From Mimachlamys varia (Eukaryota; Mollusca; Bivalvia; Pectinida; Pectinidae): a stretch of 64,000 nucleotides of DNA. Below, piece by piece: positions 50,967 to 64,000 of this stretch. Each line of letters opens with the position of its first letter. Position 1 is the first letter of the stretch. The DNA lies in NCBI GenBank assembly GCA_947623455.1, contig OX392534.1, positions 32,672,926 through 32,736,925 of the forward strand. Reading direction: 5' to 3'. The notes under the pieces were generated by a model that was not told where the DNA came from, did no database searches, and saw nothing but the letters and a program-made list of their open reading frames with translations. The position numbers and the translations under genes are program-made.

Positions 50967-51225
50967 CTAAGAGTCCAGCTGACACAGAAGGGCCAGACCA
51001 CGCTTGACCCAGTGTTCCTTTGTGTTGTCTGTTTTCAACAGTACCGAGAGGACAAAGTTTGTGGAGTGACCGGTGGTGGAAAGGACACCACGACGGGCAC
51101 TTGTTTTGTAGACTGGACATTTGTAACGGTCACCCTCCAGGATATCATCCTTTTTCTTTGGCCTCAGCCACATGGTCGGTAAAGCCTCGTTTAGAATCTT
51201 CGGCAACTGTTCCACAATTACACTC
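50967..51225 (-). CDS. Dynein exon 14 (C-terminus)
   Basis: 259 bp including the stop codon TAG (50969-50967); acceptor CTTTTACAG. Reads [40 protein letters not shown] and the end LALLCQLDS, the standard dynein C-terminus, so the protein end is complete. Confidence 0.96.
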
Positions 51226-54200
51226 CTGTAAAAGATAACAAACATGTAAGATAAACAAATAACAAAAACTGTTTCTTCTGTAATTTAGTATTCATGACAG
51301 TTGAAATAAAGTAATCAGGAATTGTCTATATCATGCTAACAAAATTTGCTAGCAGACTATCCATTTTAAATGGTAGGATGTACGAAAGAGGTGTTGGTTT
51401 TTTTATATGGATATTTGATAAAGGGGGGGGGGGATTGATTCATAATTGAAGAATGTAGGGATTATGGATTTCCATTTATGAATGGAAGATGAAGGGAAGG
51501 GTTGGATTGAGGTGGGGAAGTTAACTGATTTTTATTCATAAATCAATGTTGTAACTATTTCACTTACAATGGGATGGGGTGGGGGTGGGGGTTAGGAGTG
51601 GGCTGGGGGGGGGGGGGGGTGAATGTTAACTTTTATTAACACGAAGAGGATATATGGGGGCTAAAAGGTCCACTTACAAATTTTTGTCCCATCTTGCCCC
51701 ATCACAATAGAGTCCATAAATGTAGACACCATCCTCTGGGGGCTCGTCTATCAGCGTGTAATCAACAGACATAACCTGGGAAAAAACGGACAAACATCTC
51801 AATATTGTAAATTCAGACCATCACTGACCACTGGTTTTTAGTTTCCTGTATTAAAATCTACAAGTTCAGTCGATTTATTGATGTTTGAACTTTCAACAAG
51901 GTAATATTACTGATATTTTAATCATAAATCAAACTTTAGATTTTAGAGTCAAATTTCTTGCCATTTTAATCTATATCCTAGGTTCGGTCATTATGAAAAC
52001 ATGGACAATCAATTAAAAAATGAAAGTAAAGCAGTTAAAAGAACAAGAACAATGAAATGTTCCATGGCCACATTAACATCTAAACAGGCAAACTATACAG
52101 TGTCATTTAGCCATGATGTTAAATCTCATGTAGTATATATCAGTTCCAGTGATTAATCTACGTGCGCATCCCGCATCCTGTACTCATATGATTTTGAAAG
52201 GACCCATTGAATTTCTGGAAAAGGTTAAATTCAACATTGTGTTGTATTTCATACCCATTAACCCTCCCTCATTACCAGGGAGACTCCCTCATTTTGACCA
52301 TAATTTACCAATCTCCCTCATTTAAGTCAAATCTCACACAAACTCAGAATCTATATCCTGTGGTCAAATGATATCCTAGTTAATGAAGGGTGTGTGTAAT
52401 GACCATAACCCGTCTGGATCAAATGAATACTTTTTGAAGTTGTTTTGATACAAAAAAGGGGAAAACAAATTGAGTAATGCAGTTTTAGATGTATTTCATG
52501 TACTTTCTCCCTCATTGGAAATGTAGAATGAGGGAGATCTCCCTCATTGGAGGTTTCAGAGGTTAACACCTATGCTATTCTTTTGGCAATACAAATGAAA
52601 AGGGCCCATGAAAAATAATTGTAGATTGATCACTGCAGATCTGTATGTTAAATATTTGTAAAGCAAAACCAGACTTGGGATGTTTTTGTTTAATATGTGA
52701 AACAACCGGTTTGTCCGTTCTTAAATGTAACATTTTCTGGTATAAACCCTGATGGACCTGCAAATGCCATGCAAGACTTCTCAAGGCTCGGAAGAAACAT
52801 CAAATTACTAGCTGAAACGAAAATGGCCTTGATGTTTCAATTTTTCCTGAGGGTCATGCACAGTTCAGCCATCATCAAAGATTGACTGTAGCTAACACAG
52901 TTTTACACGAACCTTTACACACCATATTGTAGATGTAGTGGTTTTATTAACACAAATGTAATCTCAATAAAAAATTCTGCGGTAAATTTTAACATCATGA
53001 ACAAGTACCTCAAAGTCGTAAGCCAGGATGTCAATGGGTAAGGTGTACTTCCTGGCGAAATTCTGCATGGCGCCGGTCAAGAAAGCCTGAGTGAAGAAGA
53101 ATCCGGACACCCAGAAGGATGGCGGCTTGCCTTCGTCGTACCATTTCTACAACACCAGGTCAAGAGGTACAGCTTGAGTTTTATAATTCATGACTTTAAT
53201 AATTATTTCCATGGAATAGAATAATTTGGTCATTATAGGTATAACATGTATTTGTTGTAAGTAATTGGTAAGTAAAAATTAACTGCAAATTTTGAACAAT
53301 TTGAAAATATTTAATTATGTTAATACATTGTGTATGGCTAGATTCTTCTGAACATGTAGTTCAAGTACATTTACAAGAAACTAAGAAGAGCTAGAATCAA
53401 CTGCTTTACTTATTAAAATACCACAGAGAGCTGTTGAACTCCATTTGTAAGCAAATATATGAAAGTCTGAGTACAGATCGAATGATACTGAATGGCATTA
53501 TTTCAAGAAAAATTATCCAATACTTTTACACAAAGTTTATTGAACCTGACCTAGAATAAACCAACTAGTAGGTATTTTCACCTGCAAGAACTTGAGCCTC
53601 TCCAGAAAGTCTATGATGTAGCTGCCGAGTGGTTTGAGCGATGGATAGGAACGTTTCGACCACATGGCGGGAAGTTTACCGATCAGGAGACTGGCCGCAA
53701 GGTCCTCTAGCTCCGAGGACATGACCACGAGACCCTTAATGGCTTTTTGTAGATTGATAAGGCTGGAGCTGATGATTGACAGTAATCTGGAAAATAAACA
53801 AGCAAACAATCGTTGATTACCACATTCTCAAAGAGGACGAGAAATCTGATAGCCTGAACTTTGTACAATTAAAACTGCCTAATAAAACCTTTGAGTAATC
53901 TGACATCTGTTTAATTTTTCATGAAGCTAAAAATCACCAAATGCACCTATGTGACCTATTATAATCATTCTTAAAATTTAAAAGTGTACTTTCCTGACCA
54001 TTTCTGGTCATTTACTTGCAAATGAAACTTTCTTAGTGTTCATCGAAATGATTTTCAGGCTTGTTTGTAATTCTGCAATGAAGTCCATAGATAAAACCCT
54101 TTTTTTTTCTCCCATTGTTACTTAATTTTTCTTATTTTGTAAATATGACATAAATTTAAGGATTCTCCAAGTTTAATATTTTTTTTTTGCGAATTCAATG

Positions 54201-57200
54201 TTTCTAACAAAAGTGTCAACATCTGGGCCAACAAGTGATTAATATAAGTTTGATAACTTGTTTCATAATTGTTGTAAAATAATTGCAGTTATATTTGGGA
54301 GGTGACATACCTATTGAATCTCTCCATCTCCTGGACCAATACTGTGTTCATACTCTCGTTGTACACAACAGGGTACTTCTTAGTCGCCTCCTCTATGTCA
54401 TATAACTTGGGCAGCTGAAGTAAACAAACATTATTAAGGTTCATTTTCAAAACAAGGGGCAATAATGTTCATAACCTTAATAATACAAGGGGCAAGTAAT
54501 CCTAAAAACCAGGGACAGTTATCCTAAAACGTGGGGAAATGAAACTTAAAACAAGAAATGTAATGCTTAAATCTCCACCAAAAATACAAATATTTTGTAA
54601 GCCAACACATAGGTCTTAGTCTAATAAATAATATTATTAAGCATTGATGACAATTTTTTTAGTTTCATTGGGGTATGAAAAACATTTTGTTTGCAAATTG
54701 TATGAATTTGTGTGGCGGATTCTTACAAAAGTTGCAAGAATTTTTTTTTTCATAACCCTATGAAACTAAAAAATAATTGACATGAACGCTTATAATTAAT
54801 TTTTGAAACTTATTTCAAAATTTAAAATATGTTTATGTACAATTTGACTGATCTTACAACACATTCTTTTTAACAAATCAATACATGACGTCACATTTTT
54901 GGCGCCATTTTCGGATTTTTTTTCATAGAGGTATGAATAGAAAATCTCAACCAATCAGAAAGCCGCATTCTGCATCAATCAATGGAAAATTAATTTTTTT
55001 TTTTTAAACAAAACAAAAAGTGACAATTTTATATACTACAAATGCTAGTTTTACATAAGCCCCCTAAAAAAATTCTAAAAGCACCAAAAAACCACAACAA
55101 ATCTTCAAACAACTAATAGGTCGGTCCTTAAAGTCAAATAACTTATGCTTCCGTCGTACAAGTTAAAAATCTACAACTCCATAACTACGAATTGTATTTT
55201 GGTACCTTGGCTATGATGCCACCAGCCATGTTGGACAGACTAGCGTCGGTGTCGCCACCCCCTCCGCCAGAGCCCCGACCCTTCGTGAGAAGGACCGAGT
55301 CAAACAAAAGGGTTGTGTCCTGAAGTTCTTTGGAGATGTCCACATTTTCGTGCATGCCAAATACCTCGGGGGATTGTTGCTGTGGCAAGTTCTAGTGAAA
55401 AGAGAAAAAAAGTCTTGTACAAATGTGAAATACAGCTATAGTCCTCATGCAAATAGTTTTAGCAGACTTTTTAAAGACAATGTTTACAATTACTTTAACT
55501 TAAGGGCATTATTTTACAGATAATGTAACGCAACTCTGATCAGTGAAATTGAAACAGTTGACACTTCCAAAGAATTACCTCTGTGCGTGTAATTTCTTTA
55601 AGAACAGAATTGCATTTAAGTTAACAATAACATTTATGGAATCTAGAGAAAGATTTGAAAGTTTTTCTGAATTCAGTTTTCATCTTTCACATTGAAATAA
55701 CGTTTTTTTGCGACAAAAGAATGCTTCAATATTGTAAGAACACAATCAATCTTAGTGCAGTGTGTTACCTTGATAAACTGTACGTAGTCGTTGTACGAGC
55801 CTTTGGGTGGGGAATAATAGACTCCGCTGACCGAGAACTTAAAGCGCTGTTCATTGATGACGTTAGCATTGTAAAAGTCGGCCATTGTGGTGAGGAGGCA
55901 CCTTCTGTCCCAGTCATCTGTTACACGACCTCCGTAGTTACATTCTCCTGTCATATACTTCAGCGCATCGTACGGAATATCGTCATACTCATTGATAAAC
56001 ATCTGTGGAAGAAATAAAACACTTAGAATTGCCTGTTTTATGTGAAAATAAGTAAGTCTAAATTCATTGATTTCATCTTGAAAGCCCGTGTATAACAAAC
56101 AGGAACCCCTCTTACCTGTAACTGTCGGACCGATATCCTCATGTCCGACTCATTGAATCCGTACGGGATGTTCCAGCCGAGGGGTCCAAACTTTCGTCTC
56201 TCCTGGACCAGGGCATGGAAGAAGCACAACCCGAACAGCAGCTTCTCAAATTGCTGAAAGCAGAGACAATGCAATTCTTTATGGTGCTATCGTATTTCTC
56301 CGGCAATAAGCCCATGTTCGGTAATAAGCCCACCCCCCACTCCTGACCTCCCCCTATGCACTGGGGGGATGCCTGGTAATAAATGTAATTCTGTTGATAT
56401 GTATAGGCAGTTGAAAAGACATTTTAGTGTGTTTTGTTGCATATACTATTAAATTGCCATTATATGTTGTAAGTTATCAAAATGTTTGAGAGCCTTCTTT
56501 GTTTCTTATTATTTTCCTTATGTAAAAATGATATTATTCAACATCAAGAAATAAACAACAATTTTATCAAACTTTCCGTTAGAAACTCAAATGCAACAGT
56601 AGTGGAGCAGATTAGAGTATTTTATATAGGGACTATGACTACCAGTACTGTAATATTTTGCATATACTCAATACACTTTTTTATGGACATTTTTAAGTGT
56701 CAAGAACAAGGTGTGCACTATGTATACGTAAGAACAGGGATTACTGATAATGACATACAATCTCACAAACCTGATAACCATAGCGGTGATTTCTTAGTAT
56801 AAGACTTTGATTGGTCAATCAGCAATAGGAGATAAATGAAAATTTGTTGACCTTGGAATCACATTTTTTTATCGCAATCCAAAAGGTTGAACCAGTTGGA
56901 CCCGAGTTATTTGTGTACAAAAGTAAGTTTGGACCTTGTAATCTGATGCTGCTTTCAGGCGAGTCGTGACCCAAGACTTACAGGGCCTACATGAACATTT
57001 GCAAGTCTGTCAGGATTAACTCCCCAGAAAGGTTTCATTTAAAAGCAAGACAAATCAGCTAACCTGGATACATGATACCGTCCCTGGAGTCAGGAGGGGA
57101 GATACGATCAAAGAAAAAATCATTGAATCAATGCTATACATACCAGTTCCTTGCCAGGGCAGCCAACGAAGAACTCCGGATCACTGATGGGATCGTTAAG

Positions 57201-60200
57201 GTAGGATTGTAGCAGATTCTGACGGAGCCCAGTCGGTGGTTCATTGGTCATCTTCACACCGTTCTGTAGCACTGTGACTGGGAACTAAAACAAAACATTG
57301 TATACACTAATAAACATGCTCATCTTCCCACCGTCCCATGCATTGTAAGAACACCAATTCCTCACAGTGCTCGTCTGTTAAAAGGTTACACGCTTAAAAA
57401 TGAGTGCTCCCAAATAAGTACATTTACAGTACAATTTAAAAACCCTGCTGGTGGAATTCCCCCATCCTACCCCTGGCCATGTTGTTTACTATAACATCTA
57501 AAAACATTCTGCTAATGCACGACAGCAGAAATTACAAATTAGGTCTTTACAATCCGAATCGAATATTTTTTACAAATAATACTAGGAAATCCGGAAGGCG
57601 TGTTTTTAAATTTGCTTCAAGTGAAAAAGTAGATTCCGAAATAAAATGATTTTGTTGTTTACCTTATCTGAGGGGTAGCTGGTCAACCATAGTCTGAAGT
57701 CGGGGTTGATGTTTTCTGGCGTGAATTCCTCGCAGAGTTTCTCCAGGGCAGACATCCAGGACACTGCTAAATGACAGTTCTGTAGTACGACCCACGACCC
57801 ATCCTGTTTGGCATTCTCAATCATCTTACTGGCGATGGGACCCTGGATAAATTAAAGTGTCTTGTAGAAATTGTTGCTTCTTATTGCAATCAATTAATAT
57901 ATTGTGATAAAATGTTGATTTACAAATGATATTTTCCTGTTTTACCTCATCTGTAAAAGCATCCTAGATTACAATTGAAGAAATAAAATTCAAATTTTCT
58001 TTGTGATTACCTAAAACTCATGAAAGAAAAAATGTTTCAAAAAAATTCAAAATTGTGATATTTTAGTGTTACATACAGAAAATCAAATTCAATTTACGAA
58101 TTTCAAAAAACAAGAAACATAGTTTCGTTAAATTTGTAGAAAAATAAAGAGGTTTGGACAAAAAAAGATATCTTTTTTTTGTTGGAAATATAGTTAACCT
58201 TCCTTTGTGAAAACAGGACACTAATATGCTTCATATATATGCACTTTCGCCTATGTCAAACTGAAATCTCAACTTAATATTTTAAAATGACCAGAAATGA
58301 ACTTACCTGTCCCTGCCCAAGTGATATCGAGTTGAACTTATTTCCACCGAATCCCTTGTCCTCGGCAAACTTGAGCAATGCCATGATCGGATCGGCTCCG
58401 GGAGACAGGACAAAGATGAGCGGAGAACAACAGTTGGAGTCGGCGTAACTCTTGGCTAGATCAAATGGAGGTGGTTCAACAAACTTCTTACCTAGTTTTT
58501 CACGGACAAAGTTCGTAATGGCCGGATTCACCTGTAGAAAATTTACAAATATTTATTAGACAATTCTCATAATTGTTTTTACGCTTGTGTAGTACTTTTA
58601 ACATACCTACATATTTTTGCGGTAGTGTACTTGAGCACTTTTCGCGCTGAAAGTATTGCGCTAAAATATGATTGCGCTGATTGAGAGTTTTTATATACTG
58701 CTTATATAGTAATTATCACAGATGCGCATATAAACCATTGCAATAAATTTGTTAATGCGTTAACATTTGATTGTGTCAAATCAAGTATGTCTACAGTATT
58801 TTGTGTGAAAAGGAAAATAATATGGTAAGGTTCCTAGAAAAAGCAGCTATTCTTTGCAAAAGGAATGCCGATTTAAGCCAATATATTTAATATTTCTCAA
58901 AAAAAATTCATGTAAAAAGTGTGAGACAGTTTCAATGTCACATCCACATGTAGATTAGAAATGTATTACACTTCTACAATGGTAGAATGGTTACACTATA
59001 AAGAAAGGTGAGAGTATTTTAGCACAACATGGCTAGGTTTTATCCACACCTTATCAGGTCGAATAACACGAAGAATCATCATTTTCTGGAACTCGTTGGC
59101 GTCCTTGTCCCAGGGTTCCGGTAAAACTTCATTGTGAGGTTCACGAGAATTGTAGTACTTCTTCCAAGCATCTAAATTCTTGATGAAGTGAGGTCTGAAA
59201 GGGAGACAATTATGACTTAACATCTAGGTTCAAGTCAAAATAATCTTCTCAGGGTTGCAAACAATTTTTTGTTTTGTTTATTGTTTTTTTAAAAGAGAAC
59301 GATAGAAGTCATGAACATTATTTCTGTACATGAAGAAGCTTTAGACTACTGTAAACCAACTTATTTTCGCGGTGACTTGATTTCGCATTTTCCTATGAAA
59401 CGACTATTTCGCTATAAATACAGTCATAAAGCCTATGTACACTCCTACAGTTGGTACAACAACTGATTGACACTTTTTCGTGGTGATTTATTTTCGCGAA
59501 TTTTAATCAACCGTGAAATACGCAAAAATTAATCGCACACGAAAATAAGTTGGTTTACAGTATGTTCAAGGTTTGAAATCATTGACTTTCTTTAAAACGC
59601 AGAATCTGCTTGGTTACCAAGGTAAAATTACTAATAAGAATAATCTAAATATTAAAATCTCAAACTGAGCAAGCACATCTGGCCTTGAAAAATACACATA
59701 AGTAGGCAGAATTGTTTGTTTAAATAAAGATATTTTTTATGACTTATTAGAGTTTGTATCTGTCAAACAAAAAGTTATTTAAATCAATATAAAATTGTAG
59801 AGAAGGGAAGGAATATGGATAAAATATTTTTCTACTACAGTGTTAATACAGATAATTGTTTCGATACAAACCTTAATTTTTTGAACTGTTTAAGATCTGA
59901 CAGACGACACAATTCGTCCCAACTCTTGTCTAAGAGCCAAGTTGGGGCTGGATTGGCCAGAGTGTTGTCCAGACCCACACCGCCGGTCAAGAAAAACATG
60001 AGTTCTTCTGAGTCCATATCATCCTTAGCTCTACAAAGGAAAAGTTACAGGTCAGTTGTGTTTTGGTAACTTAATTGTAAATTTCATCAATTAGAAATAA
60101 ATGATTGTAATAAAATTACTGATATATCCCTTTTGCTATGAAACCCATTCTTGGAGACCATATCAAATAACCAAATGTCCATTTAATTTTGACTGAATGA

Positions 60201-63200
60201 ATAATGTCATATTATTATTAATGAAATATTTTTATAATTTAACTGCTTTCAACATTGAATTGATACATTAGTCAAATGAGAAATTACATACTGTTTTCTA
60301 TTAATAAACTCATTAATGTATAATGAAAGCAACGCATGATTTTAACATTCAACAGAAGAGACATGTATTATCTATCTATCATGTAATATTACAAATTTAA
60401 AAACAAACAAACAAATCATATATGTATGGTTATGTATTAGGCATTTATGTCAAAAATTCTACTCAAAACATTAACATCAAACCAGAAAAAGAAATAAATC
60501 AAAAAGTGATTTCTATTACCAATGAAAACAGTCTCCCCTTCATTGAATCATAACCACTGCACACTCAAATGGAAATTTTATCTATAACAATGGTGATTTC
60601 GACCTTTGAACTTTTGACCTTCACACTTTTCCAATAGAATCTGAGCAGGGTCGCATCAATTTATCTCATTCCTCCCTGTAGACACGTTTGAACTCTTCTG
60701 ATACAAAGGTTGGAATAGTTGATTAAGAAATATTGGGGGCAAAAGTGAATAACACTGCAGTTATATCATCTATACCTCCAATTCAACTAAATTTCACAAC
60801 AAATTGATAACTAATCAAATGCGAAGCAACAAAGTGTATGGAGCACTACTGTTAGGAGTAAAATATCTTAAATCTAGTTTATGTGACCTTGACCTTTGAC
60901 CTCTAATTTTCCAAATATGGAAATCTATGTTTGAAGGCTGAACACAGAAGGATCAAGGGCACTAATCTTCTATTCATGAAAACAGTGACCTTGATCTAAA
61001 ATGTGACCTTGACCTAAAATCTGAAATATAACCCTAGTTATCAATTTCTTATATAGGGTCCTCTTATATATGGTGTAGCATGAAAATCATAGGGCTACGA
61101 GGATTAAAATAATACAACAGGACTTAAACTCAAGCCACTAAATAAAAATCAGAAGGGGAGACAACTAGTGAGACCAACAGGCCATAAAATGAAATTATTT
61201 ACATAATTTATTTTAAGTACATGTAAATATTTAGCAACCCTGGGTTACCCATTTAATTCTTCAAAACAATAATATCTACATGATTATAATAATATTGATA
61301 GATATATGAAATTAGAATATGTAAGTGTATTATTTTAAGGTAACTGAGCAAAACTTCAAAAAGAATGCAACAAAGCCATATTGGTGATAAAACCAACCCT
61401 GAAAATATTCACATGAAACAAAATGTTGCTGAAAATATTTTGTAAAAACCAATGTTTCAAGGGGGCCAAAATCATCTAGCTTTTTAAAAATCAAAAGATG
61501 AGAAAGGACTTTCAGCAACATTTATATAATGGAAATTAAACACACAAAAAACAATAGAAAGCCATTATTGAATTAATATTAAAATGTTAATAAAAAGCAC
61601 AAAGTAATCAAACAGAATAAAAAAAACCATGCGAAAAACCATTCCAACGTTTCACTCCATTTCATACTTACAACAACATGTTTGAACAGAGAATGAAAGA
61701 AAAGAGCAGTTTGTCTTTTTCAAAGAGGGAACGACAGACATTACAGTAAAGACTGTATGTGAAGTAGTCAGAGAGGTATCGTAAACGACGCTCCAGAATC
61801 TTGGATTTGTTGCTGAAAAACATGCAGAATAAACAAACATATATAGCCATGTTGAATACAAGCTTCTGTTGCTGGTGGTGGTGGTGGTGGTGACAGACAA
61901 GAGTTATCTCCCTTATCTGAACTCTCTGCAACCACACAGGTGGAGATTAGTCCCAGAACATGCCTTAACTCATTGTGTTGAAATGGTATACAGGGAAAAA
62001 ACTCAAAAAGAGATATATACCAGAGACAATTACTATATACAAGTCTCTGACTAATTACAGTATTTAAAAACATGTTTTTTAGTTCCTTTTGTTGATGTTT
62101 TGATGATAAAATATCTTTTAATAAATTTTTTTATTGATCAGCCATGTTTGTAAATACTGTTGTTGCACTAAATTTTGAGCCCCAAACTGTACATCAATGT
62201 CATTTAATACCATAAAAAGATTGACATGGACAATTGTAAAATAACATGGGAATTGGAAGTTTTGAAACAATAATTTTTGCTTTTTAAATAATAAAATACA
62301 CTGACATTGAAATGCATTTCAGGGCTCAAAATCCTCTTTCTAAAAGCAGTAAGTCTGAAGGAGTATACAAGGTAGCGAGTATATTGGTGTACATGTTAGC
62401 GAGTATACAGTCATATATATATAGGTGAGTACACAAGAAGGCGAGTATACATGGACAAATAAAGTATACAAGTGTATGATAGCGAGTATGAAGGCCAAGA
62501 GAGTATGATCGGATGAGTACCCATGTGTATGATAGTGAATACACAAGTGTAGCGAGTACGCAGGAAGAGTGTTTGAGCGAGCTCTGGGTTACGAGTACGG
62601 TACTTTAGAAGTCTCTAACCGCTATACAAGACTAGACGACACTAGTACTATATATACTCCACATTCTCCTCGTGTGAATACTCACAACTGTAGGTTTGCA
62701 CAGAGTAGGAAGGCAAACACGAGCTTGTGTATTGCAAATATTGAGCGCGTTACATTGTCGTATAACTGAAACTGGAAGTAATCCTTCAAATATCGTAGGC
62801 GGCGTTCCAAGATCTTGGACTTATTACTGAAATAAGGCAATTGTGACGACAGGTTCATTAATTATTTCAAAATAACTTTTCTGCATGATATTTGAGTTTG
62901 AAATTGAACATCAGCGTGTTTTTGTTGTAAAACTACAAATTATTTATTAAAATATAATCGCAATTCAAGCTTACTTGAATTTTAAACTATCAGAGGGCAT
63001 TGTAAAAATTTGTAGTTAAAGATCGACAAAAAGTCTGTAGCCACATGTAAGATCGGCTCCTCTTCCTCATATTTCATTGGTTGTTAATTTCACCAAATAA
63101 TGTTAATCAAAATGTGTTGAAAATGCTTTGCATAACAGCAAATTTAAAAGGCATCTACAAATATTTAATGAAAAAAATAAAAATAAAATAAAAATGTTTG

Positions 63201-64000
63201 ACCCATTTAACATTAGTTCTACTGTGATATGGTATTATGGAAGGCAATGCAAAACTCTGTTACTTCAAATTGAATGAAAAAAATAACCCCAAAAATAAAC
63301 AATGGATAATAAATAACTTCTGGTGATAAATTTTAAGCTGAAAATGTGTGTGCAATTGAAATTCTCAACAAAATTATTATATGTATACATAATGTTATCT
63401 AGAGGGTAATACAAATAACAAATAAGACAGAAATATGCAAATCATCATATATTCCAAGCCGTGAGGTGGGTTTCTTCATAATGAGGTAGGATGTTTGGGA
63501 TGAAAGAAACAATTATTAAATTTTACATGATTTATAATTCAATTCACAAAACACCAATCATTTTGAGACAATGGACGGCCACAAATAAATGCAATTTTAA
63601 TATATTGATATTACATATGTTATACCATTTAAGCAATCTGTGTCTTTGAATTCTTTACATCAACATTACATCAATAAATATTTCTGTGTAATTTCTTATT
63701 TACTTGTTTCACTTCAGATTTTAAAACATTTCTTGGAGAGATCAATAAATATTTCTGTGAAATTTCTGATTTACTTTAAAACATTTCTTGGAGAGATGGT
63801 TTTTTCAATACCAGATCCCTGTCCACTGCACAACACTTAAAATATCAGCTGCAGTTGATTATGAATTCAAACCATAACCTACCATTTATCAAATTTTGGA
63901 TAAAACTGTTGTGCAACCAGACCAGTCAGCTCAGATAGAGATAGGGTAGAATTTGGGGTCCTTGGTTTGAACCCTGTATTGACTCAATTACATTTTGACA
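50967..64000 (-). CDS. Axonemal dynein heavy chain, 3' end (DNAH3/7/12-like), 14 exon positions
   Basis: Motor subunit of a ciliary inner-arm dynein, an ATP-driven microtubule motor. Fourteen exon positions encode about 783 residues from the AAA5-AAA6 junction through AAA6 to the C-terminal domain; the rest lies beyond 64000. All introns are GT..AG and all phases join without a break. Landmarks in order: [98 protein letters not shown], and the end CQLDS. By recall the GMHENVDIS and [13 protein letters not shown] wording is closest to DNAH12; DNAH7 and DNAH3 remain possible. The first exon position is duplicated (separate entries). Introns range from 113 to 1641 bp and hold only repeats. Confidence 0.95.
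51571..51620 (+). repeat. G-rich tract in the last dynein intron
   Basis: Plus-strand run with GGGATGGGGTGGGGGTGGGG and a 15-G run at about 51605-51619; a shorter run of Gs is near 51423-51432. It could form a G-quadruplex on the template strand of the gene. Confidence 0.6.
51678..51775 (-). CDS. Dynein exon 13
   Basis: 98 bp; acceptor TTCCCAG, donor GTAAGTG. Reads [19 protein letters not shown]; the Leu codon is split with exon 14. Confidence 0.93.
51776..53008. other. Dynein intron 12, about 1.2 kb
   Basis: No exon was found in it on either strand. It holds CTCCCTCATT-type short repeats, including a perfect 11-bp inverted repeat TCTCCCTCATT/AATGAGGGAGA at 52506-52516 and 52527-52537. Confidence 0.6.
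53009..53146 (-). CDS. Dynein exon 12
   Basis: 138 bp; acceptor GTTGTAG, donor GTACTTG. Reads [10 protein letters not shown] and [19 protein letters not shown], then [11 protein letters not shown]. Confidence 0.94.
53582..53786 (-). CDS. Dynein exon 11
   Basis: 205 bp; acceptor TTTTCCAG, donor GTGAAAA. Reads [14 protein letters not shown] and [14 protein letters not shown]. Confidence 0.95.
54311..54414 (-). CDS. Dynein exon 10
   Basis: 104 bp; acceptor ACTTCAG, donor GTATGTC. Reads ATKKYPVVY and [15 protein letters not shown]; the Arg codon is split with exon 11. Too short to stand out as an open frame by itself. Confidence 0.93.
55206..55391 (-). CDS. Dynein exon 9 (start of C-terminal domain, Gly-rich loop)
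   Basis: 186 bp; acceptor TTCACTAG, donor GTACCAA. Reads [13 protein letters not shown]; the wording MHENVDIS is what points towards DNAH12. [11 protein letters not shown] loop follows [10 protein letters not shown]. Confidence 0.93.
55769..56002 (-). CDS. Dynein exon 8
   Basis: 234 bp; acceptor TTCCACAG, donor GTAACAC. Reads [10 protein letters not shown] and [19 protein letters not shown]. Confidence 0.95.
56116..56253 (-). CDS. Dynein exon 7
   Basis: 138 bp; acceptor CTTTCAG, donor GTAAGAGG. Reads [18 protein letters not shown] and ends at ISVRQLQ. Confidence 0.95.
57144..57284 (-). CDS. Dynein exon 6
   Basis: 141 bp; acceptor TTTTAG, donor GTATGT. Reads [17 protein letters not shown] and [11 protein letters not shown]. 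Confidence 0.95.
57663..57842 (-). CDS. Dynein exon 5 (AAA6)
   Basis: 180 bp; acceptor TATCCAG, donor GTAAAC. Contains [16 protein letters not shown] and [14 protein letters not shown], among the best-conserved AAA6 segments. Confidence 0.95.
58307..58531 (-). CDS. Dynein exon 4 (AAA6 core)
   Basis: 225 bp; acceptor TTCTACAG, donor GTAAGTTC. Contains [28 protein letters not shown] and [17 protein letters not shown], the degenerate nucleotide-site region of AAA6. Confidence 0.95.
59050..59194 (-). CDS. Dynein exon 3
   Basis: 145 bp; acceptor CTTTCAG, donor GTGTGG. Reads [16 protein letters not shown] near its start and [11 protein letters not shown] at its end. Confidence 0.93.
59347..59562. 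mobile_element. 216-bp MITE-like element in a dynein intron
   Basis: The ends are perfect 23-bp inverted repeats starting TACTGTAAACCAACTTATTT; the outermost TA on each side may be a TA target-site duplication. The inside has TTTTCGCG-rich sequence with weaker symmetry. There is no ORF. It lies in the intron between dynein exons 3 and 2. Confidence 0.8.
59872..60030 (-). CDS. Dynein exon 2 (AAA6 start)
   Basis: 159 bp, GT..AG bounded (acceptor TTTGTAG, donor GTTTGT). Contains [18 protein letters not shown] and [16 protein letters not shown], the region just after the AAA5-AAA6 junction. Its last codon (Arg) is split with exon 3. Confidence 0.93.
60031..61671. other. Dynein intron 1, about 1.6 kb
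   Basis: The longest complete intron. It has AT-rich sequence and several TGACCTTTGACCT-like segments (60884-60902 and around 60.6 and 61.0 kb), a type common in dispersed repeats. I looked for a third copy of the duplicated exon here and saw none. Confidence 0.6.
61672..61812 (-). CDS. Dynein exon 1, canonical version A (downstream copy)
   Basis: 141 bp between an acceptor TTTTTCAG and a donor GTAAGTATG, with the same phases as version B. It contains [18 protein letters not shown], the usual dynein wording at the junction of AAA5 and AAA6. It joins in frame to [10 protein letters not shown] in the next exon. Confidence 0.92.
62362..62600. repeat. Degenerate GCGAGTATAC repeat between the two alternative exons
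   Basis: About ten variants of GCGAGTATAC (for example AGCGAGTATATTGG, GGCGAGTATACATGG, AGCGAGTACGCAGG) are spaced about 20-30 bases apart in the 873-bp intron between exon versions B and A. It is a decayed minisatellite; a role in splicing choice is only a possibility. Confidence 0.6.
62686..62826 (-). CDS. Dynein exon 1, alternative version B (upstream copy)
   Basis: 141 bp between an acceptor ATTTCAG and a donor GTGAGTAT. It is open in the expected phase (one base in, two bases out). It reads [20 protein letters not shown], then includes [19 protein letters not shown]. It aligns without gaps with version A. It lacks the EKD of FEKDK. It keeps the protein sequence of the first 13 codons although 10 of them differ synonymously from version A, so it is not a fresh or dead duplicate. 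Confidence 0.85.
62827..64000. other. Dynein intron upstream of the alternative exons (incomplete)
   Basis: AT-rich intron sequence that continues past the window. No further exon is seen. The last 85 bases look like a tRNA-derived SINE (separate entry). Confidence 0.6.
63915..64000 (+). mobile_element. Possible tRNA-derived SINE head, cut by the window edge
   Basis: CAGCTCAGATAGAGATAGGG resembles a pol III A box, and TCCTTGGTTTGAACCCTGTA about 40 bases on resembles a B box. The spacing and order fit a tRNA-like SINE head. It is diverged and truncated by the end of the window. Confidence 0.35.

Follow-up and report, generated by a model that had tools for sequence, protein, structure and literature searches.

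Can a single dynein heavy chain gene supply two motors by exchanging one exon? The question is raised by a window of 64,000 nucleotides from the scallop Mimachlamys varia (assembly GCA_947623455.1, contig OX392534.1, positions 32,672,926 to 32,736,925 of the forward strand; "the window" denotes this whole stretch, and positions are given in its coordinates unless a sequence label precedes them). On its minus strand, a dynein heavy chain gene carries an ordinary version (A) and a divergent version (B) of one exon, which an earlier note, made from the letters alone, had taken for a probably mutually exclusive pair. We find that A and B are an old duplicated exon pair, and we think it probable that they form an ancient, tandem-duplicated, mutually exclusive pair in the DNAH12 gene, whose exclusive splicing would give two heavy chains from one gene.

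Two versions of one DNAH12 exon

Exon B (62826-62686) is the 5'-most of the pair in the gene, followed by an 873-bp intron (61813..62685) and exon A (61812-61672), all on the minus strand. Each exon is 141 bp long, and both share AG/GT borders and the same phase (phase 2 at entry and exit). The pair is thus alike in length, phase, splice-site type, and sequence, and its members are adjacent, as expected of mutually exclusive exons. The acceptors both read TTTCAG and the donors GTGAGT and GTAAGT, which we take to be of the U2 type. At the borders, both versions complete a Ser codon at the 5' end (AG/C, AG/T) and begin a Leu codon at the 3' end (TT/A). A and B encode the same residue at 30 of 46 whole codons and carry the same base at 88 of 141 positions; over the first 13 codons the encoded residues match throughout, even though 10 of these codons are not the same. 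The picture drawn by the earlier note is borne out in these respects: the spacing, length, and phase of the pair, the identical leading residues with changed codons, and the usual form of the peptide in A with the charged EKD lost from B. Its estimate of about 31 identical residues in 47 was right to within one residue.

Homology identifies the host gene. A stretch of 281 residues containing exon A aligns without gaps to human DNAH12 (456 bits), in which the exon occurs as a single copy. The structure bank yielded matches to 79 dynein sequences, some of whose alignments were inspected; the best matches among dyneins with solved structures are two DNAH12 chains (8j07_g1 and 9fqr_PW, 456 and 453 bits), followed by DNAH7 at 420 bits. 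The stalk region is likewise closest to DNAH12. By this measure, the gene is the scallop orthologue of DNAH12, an axonemal inner-arm dynein heavy chain. The stalk (L003:5475-5696) gives a Pfam MT match and is gapless against residues 2535-2866 of human DNAH12, which fits poorly with a published claim that DNAH12 has no microtubule-binding domain (PMC11949491).

The gene was modeled ab initio on the minus strand of 140 kb that overlap the window and extend beyond its end. The resulting model runs from start to stop over 64 exons (100190 to 50967, with window coordinates continued past 64000) and comprises 4,121 codons including both A and B; it is our own ab initio prediction, and some of its small exons are doubtful. 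A looser run gave 217 exons, too many of them small, and the stricter model was used instead.

Pfam domain positions support the earlier placement of the exon between AAA5 and AAA6. In a 570-residue piece, AAA_9 ends at residue 195 and Dynein_heavy starts at 440, with the exon at approximately 260-306; the A and B versions give the same result. In Dictyostelium dynein, the AAA5-AAA6 connector comprises the 139 residues before AAA6L (PMC4047620). Counting back by this length, the exon should encode the last helix of the AAA5 small subdomain (AAA5S) and the start of the connector.

Selection on both copies and the changes in B

As a check against chance resemblance, we scanned the introns flanking internal exons of the 64-exon model for AG...GT/GC segments of exactly the length of the neighboring exon. 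Among 157 segments tested, 16 were open, and the best reached 2% of the self BLOSUM62 score, as opposed to 66-67% for A with B. The pair is therefore the only such duplicate visible to the scan; no other same-length duplicate exon was found in the flanking introns at exact length, within a model unverified by RNA.

Over 138 bases, A and B differ at 52, distributed as 17, 9, and 26 over the first, second, and third codon positions. In the codon fit, kappa was set to 2, given that the free fit was degenerate (the branch length ran off and kappa was odd); NG86 returned no dS for the pair. The ratio of nonsynonymous to synonymous change (omega) was best at 0.08, with values from about 0.05 to 0.2 on the grid not rejected. 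The yardstick of 0.5 probes whether both copies were constrained: with constraint on one copy alone, the average would fall close to that value. Omega of 0.5 was worse by a likelihood difference (2dlnL) of 14.3 and omega of 1 by 29.1, and both are rejected. Estimates of silent distance across the accepted range run from 1.8 to 5.6 per site, near saturation, which indicates that the duplication is old. Both copies have probably been kept by purifying selection for a long time, in agreement with what the earlier note had read from the silent codon changes and proposed to check by dN/dS. In a simple simulation of neutral drift on B alone, which is a weaker test, trials passed if they retained an open frame and 30 identities; none of 20,000 did so with 52 changes, 0.01% with 40 changes, and 3.5% with 30 changes.

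What B changes was judged against other dyneins. A genome search with peptide A returned 16 places, two of which are A and B themselves; three were left out as not dynein-like (L036, L038, and L039), and 11 were kept. For seven of the 11, tblastn run with the exon masked showed further dynein exons close by, and four (L031, L033, L034, and L037) were kept by the motif alone. Together with five solved structures, the 11 scallop places make up an alignment of 16 other sequences. Glu 31 of the exon, within FEKDK, is Glu in all 16 and Ala in B. Among the 16 residue differences between A and B, B matches other dyneins at nine and has a new residue at seven, while A has a new residue at four. The segment had been described as nearly constant in dyneins; only six of 46 columns are invariant among the 16 other sequences, and three of these are covered by few sequences, but the Glu that B has lost is among the six.

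B is unique among the dyneins found in this genome. A genome search with B returned B itself at full identity, A at 65%, and five other places at 36-49%. No second B-like copy occurs within approximately 1.5 kb of the same exon at the 11 other scallop places read as dynein, and no relatives of B were found in viral and prokaryote contigs.

The position of the exon suggests where the substitutions might act. It has been proposed that AAA5S and AAA6L move together as one block and pull the buttress (PMC6600642). Given this role, B may alter how the ring signals to the stalk, and the swap of FEKD for FAIH would tune the movement of the buttress and stalk by the block.

Proposed exclusive use and its alternatives

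Mutual exclusivity of A and B is likely from the alignment to human DNAH12, as including both exons would insert 47 residues into a stretch of 281 residues that is gapless with A. We propose that each mRNA would contain one of the two, with A as the default and B used in some cell types. The public RNA-seq of this assembly comes from muscle (PMC11252643), a tissue that probably says little on this point.

Several observations weigh against this proposal. Over three or four joined exons, transcripts with A only, B only, both, or neither all remain open, so nonsense-mediated decay would not enforce exclusion. The 873-bp intron is too long for steric hindrance between the two exons, and both introns look to be of the common type, which leaves no U2/U12 incompatibility. 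Exclusivity is thus not forced by frame, intron length, or splice-site type. In addition, B scores low as an exon. When splice sites were scored leave-one-out against the 61 other sites of our gene model, the B donor proved weak for the gene (six of 61 other donors score no better), and in coding score only one of 62 other exons is as low. The Glu lost from B is kept in 12 of 12 verified dyneins (five from solved structures, seven from scallop places), and its absence could point to a loss of function; we count 12 rather than 16 because the remaining four places were recognized by the motif itself, making their Glu circular. Lastly, drift of 26 changes passes the simulation in 16% of trials and drift of 20 changes in 44%, so B could have fallen out of use recently.

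The same weakish donor, low coding score, lost Glu, and tolerance of approximately 20-26 neutral changes on B are what would be seen if B were a fading copy, once selected and recently out of use, with its old constraint still visible. We regard this as unlikely, although it fares best among the alternatives. B keeps an open frame of 141 bp between intact borders, an omega of 0.5 is rejected for the pair, and nine of the 16 B differences are residues that other dyneins use at those positions. The B acceptor is matched or undercut by 24 of 61 other acceptors; for A, 15 of 61 other donors and 40 of 61 acceptors score no better. The earlier judgment that both exons have good splice sites stands for A and less so for B. 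The coding score of A is low too (three of 62 other exons are as low), and open intronic frames of the same length reach the score of B in only four of 189 sampled cases. With such donor and coding scores, B counts as a weaker exon rather than a broken one.

A further possibility, which we consider improbable in this specific form, keeps the pair exclusive and assigns the choice to RNA pairing: an array in the intron between B and A would mask the B donor, and B would be used only where the donor is opened. The putative control element consists of approximately 10 short (U)ACUCGC/ACUCAC-like motifs at 62357..62593 (minus strand), a short way downstream of B, which complement the 5' splice sites of both exons. 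When 62 introns are ranked by the number of sites complementary to their own donors, the one between B and A comes first, with 11 versus a shuffle mean of 2.45, and all five TACTCGC words in the introns of the gene lie within it. A genome search that ignores very common words found no other copy of the 351-bp stretch containing the array, and a tandem repeat search found no array in this intron even at a score of 30. In predicted unpaired share, the B donor ranks 5th and 2nd lowest of 63 and is thus predicted to be buried, whereas the A donor, at 58th and 57th, is predicted to be open. When the downstream intron was shuffled, however, B was as buried in 34 of 150 shuffles, which is not significant; A was at least as open as observed in about seven of 150. 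Over 361 bases starting at the B donor, fold stability is not unusual (z-score of -0.14). The motif was also spotted by eye and then counted, and one expanded repeat would count many times. We treat the array as a lead, not as evidence, for splice choice.

Less probable again is that B serves as an optional exon sometimes added beside A, or as rare noise replacing A, in either case lowering the amount of working DNAH12. Transcripts with both exons or with neither would stay in frame, as this requires, but an insertion of 47 residues would interrupt the segment that aligns gaplessly from scallop to human, and selection for the same protein segment in B is easier to reconcile with replacement than with addition. 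B as a chance open frame or repeat artefact is rejected by the segment scan, the drift simulation, the codon fit, and the genome search, and an assembly or haplotype duplicate is ruled out because A and B differ at 53 of 141 bases.

Surroundings, precedents, and meaning of the pair

The flanks of the pair follow from the gene model, all on the minus strand. Upstream of B lies an intron of 1,387 bp, of which the part in the window is 62827..64000, and the exon preceding it is at 64386-64214 (L003:1214-1386), beyond the window end. Downstream of A, the next constitutive exon (59872..60030) aligns to human DNAH12, and the remaining 3' exons to the stop codon occupy 50967..59194. At L004:5018-5495, a DNAH12 exon seemingly has about four head-to-tail copies of its 3' end (...NFSAQTSANQTQ) and donor GTAGGT, giving repeated donor-like sites.

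Elsewhere in the window, positions 4465-45731 contain at least seven near-identical open reading frames of approximately 140-166 codons on the minus strand (MGCFGFLKCRRSPKIHPYMDEEEMK...), set among tandem repeats whose frames read ITDPYRNYRYTS; neither the repeats nor these reading frames have a Pfam match. Three adjoining open reading frames at L015:1049-3591, on the strand of the dynein gene and upstream of it, seem to resemble a mobile-element transposase.

Pairs of this kind have a precedent among dyneins. The earlier note knew of no described example, but among dyneins as a whole there is one: SmDHC1, the cytoplasmic dynein heavy chain of Schistosoma mansoni, is described as having a mutually exclusive exon (PMC3228551). 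Like A and B, the exons of SmDHC1 are neighbors of identical length in a dynein heavy chain gene; they are strongly homologous, and codons are split at either end (PMC3228551). SmDHC1 is a cytoplasmic chain of Schistosoma, whereas A and B belong to a bivalve axonemal inner-arm chain and lie near the AAA5-AAA6 joint. In the literature on dynein and scallop alternative exons, judged by titles and the starts of abstracts and largely outside subscription journals, no mutually exclusive exons in an axonemal dynein were found, and the Kassiopeia paper does not mention dynein. The A/B pair is therefore of a kind of exclusive exon already described, now in an axonemal dynein. Muscle myosin heavy chain genes, of which Daphnia provides an example (PMC3228551), also swap homologous exons of the motor domain. 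They belong to another motor family and have several clusters per gene with known expression, in contrast to the single scallop pair known from genome sequence.

Motor variants for different cilia are also obtained by other means. In the outer arms of mammalian sperm, DNAH8 and DNAH17 replace DNAH5 and DNAH9 (PMC11779644); the outcome would be the same in the scallop, but separate genes achieve it in mammals and exons of one gene would do so here. DNAH12 is inner arm dynein a (IDAa) in mammals (PMC11779644). Among mice lacking DNAH12, males are infertile and have broken sperm axonemes, while the cilia of trachea and oviduct show no visible abnormality (PMC11949491). Since sperm are affected and cilia visibly are not, two DNAH12 forms for two kinds of axoneme would be a reasonable arrangement. 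The fully specified version, in which an A-form and a Glu-less B-form of DNAH12 (IDAa) operate in different ciliated cells, gill cilia as opposed to sperm, and the intronic array masks the B donor, is speculative, and we doubt that all of its parts will hold together.

If B is used, variation in axonemal dyneins would arise through exchange of exons within the AAA ring and not only through gene duplication, the route seen in mammalian outer arms. B would then also offer a naturally occurring version, kept by selection, of the AAA5S-AAA6L block, which is believed to transmit movement at the ATP site onward to the buttress and stalk (PMC6600642).
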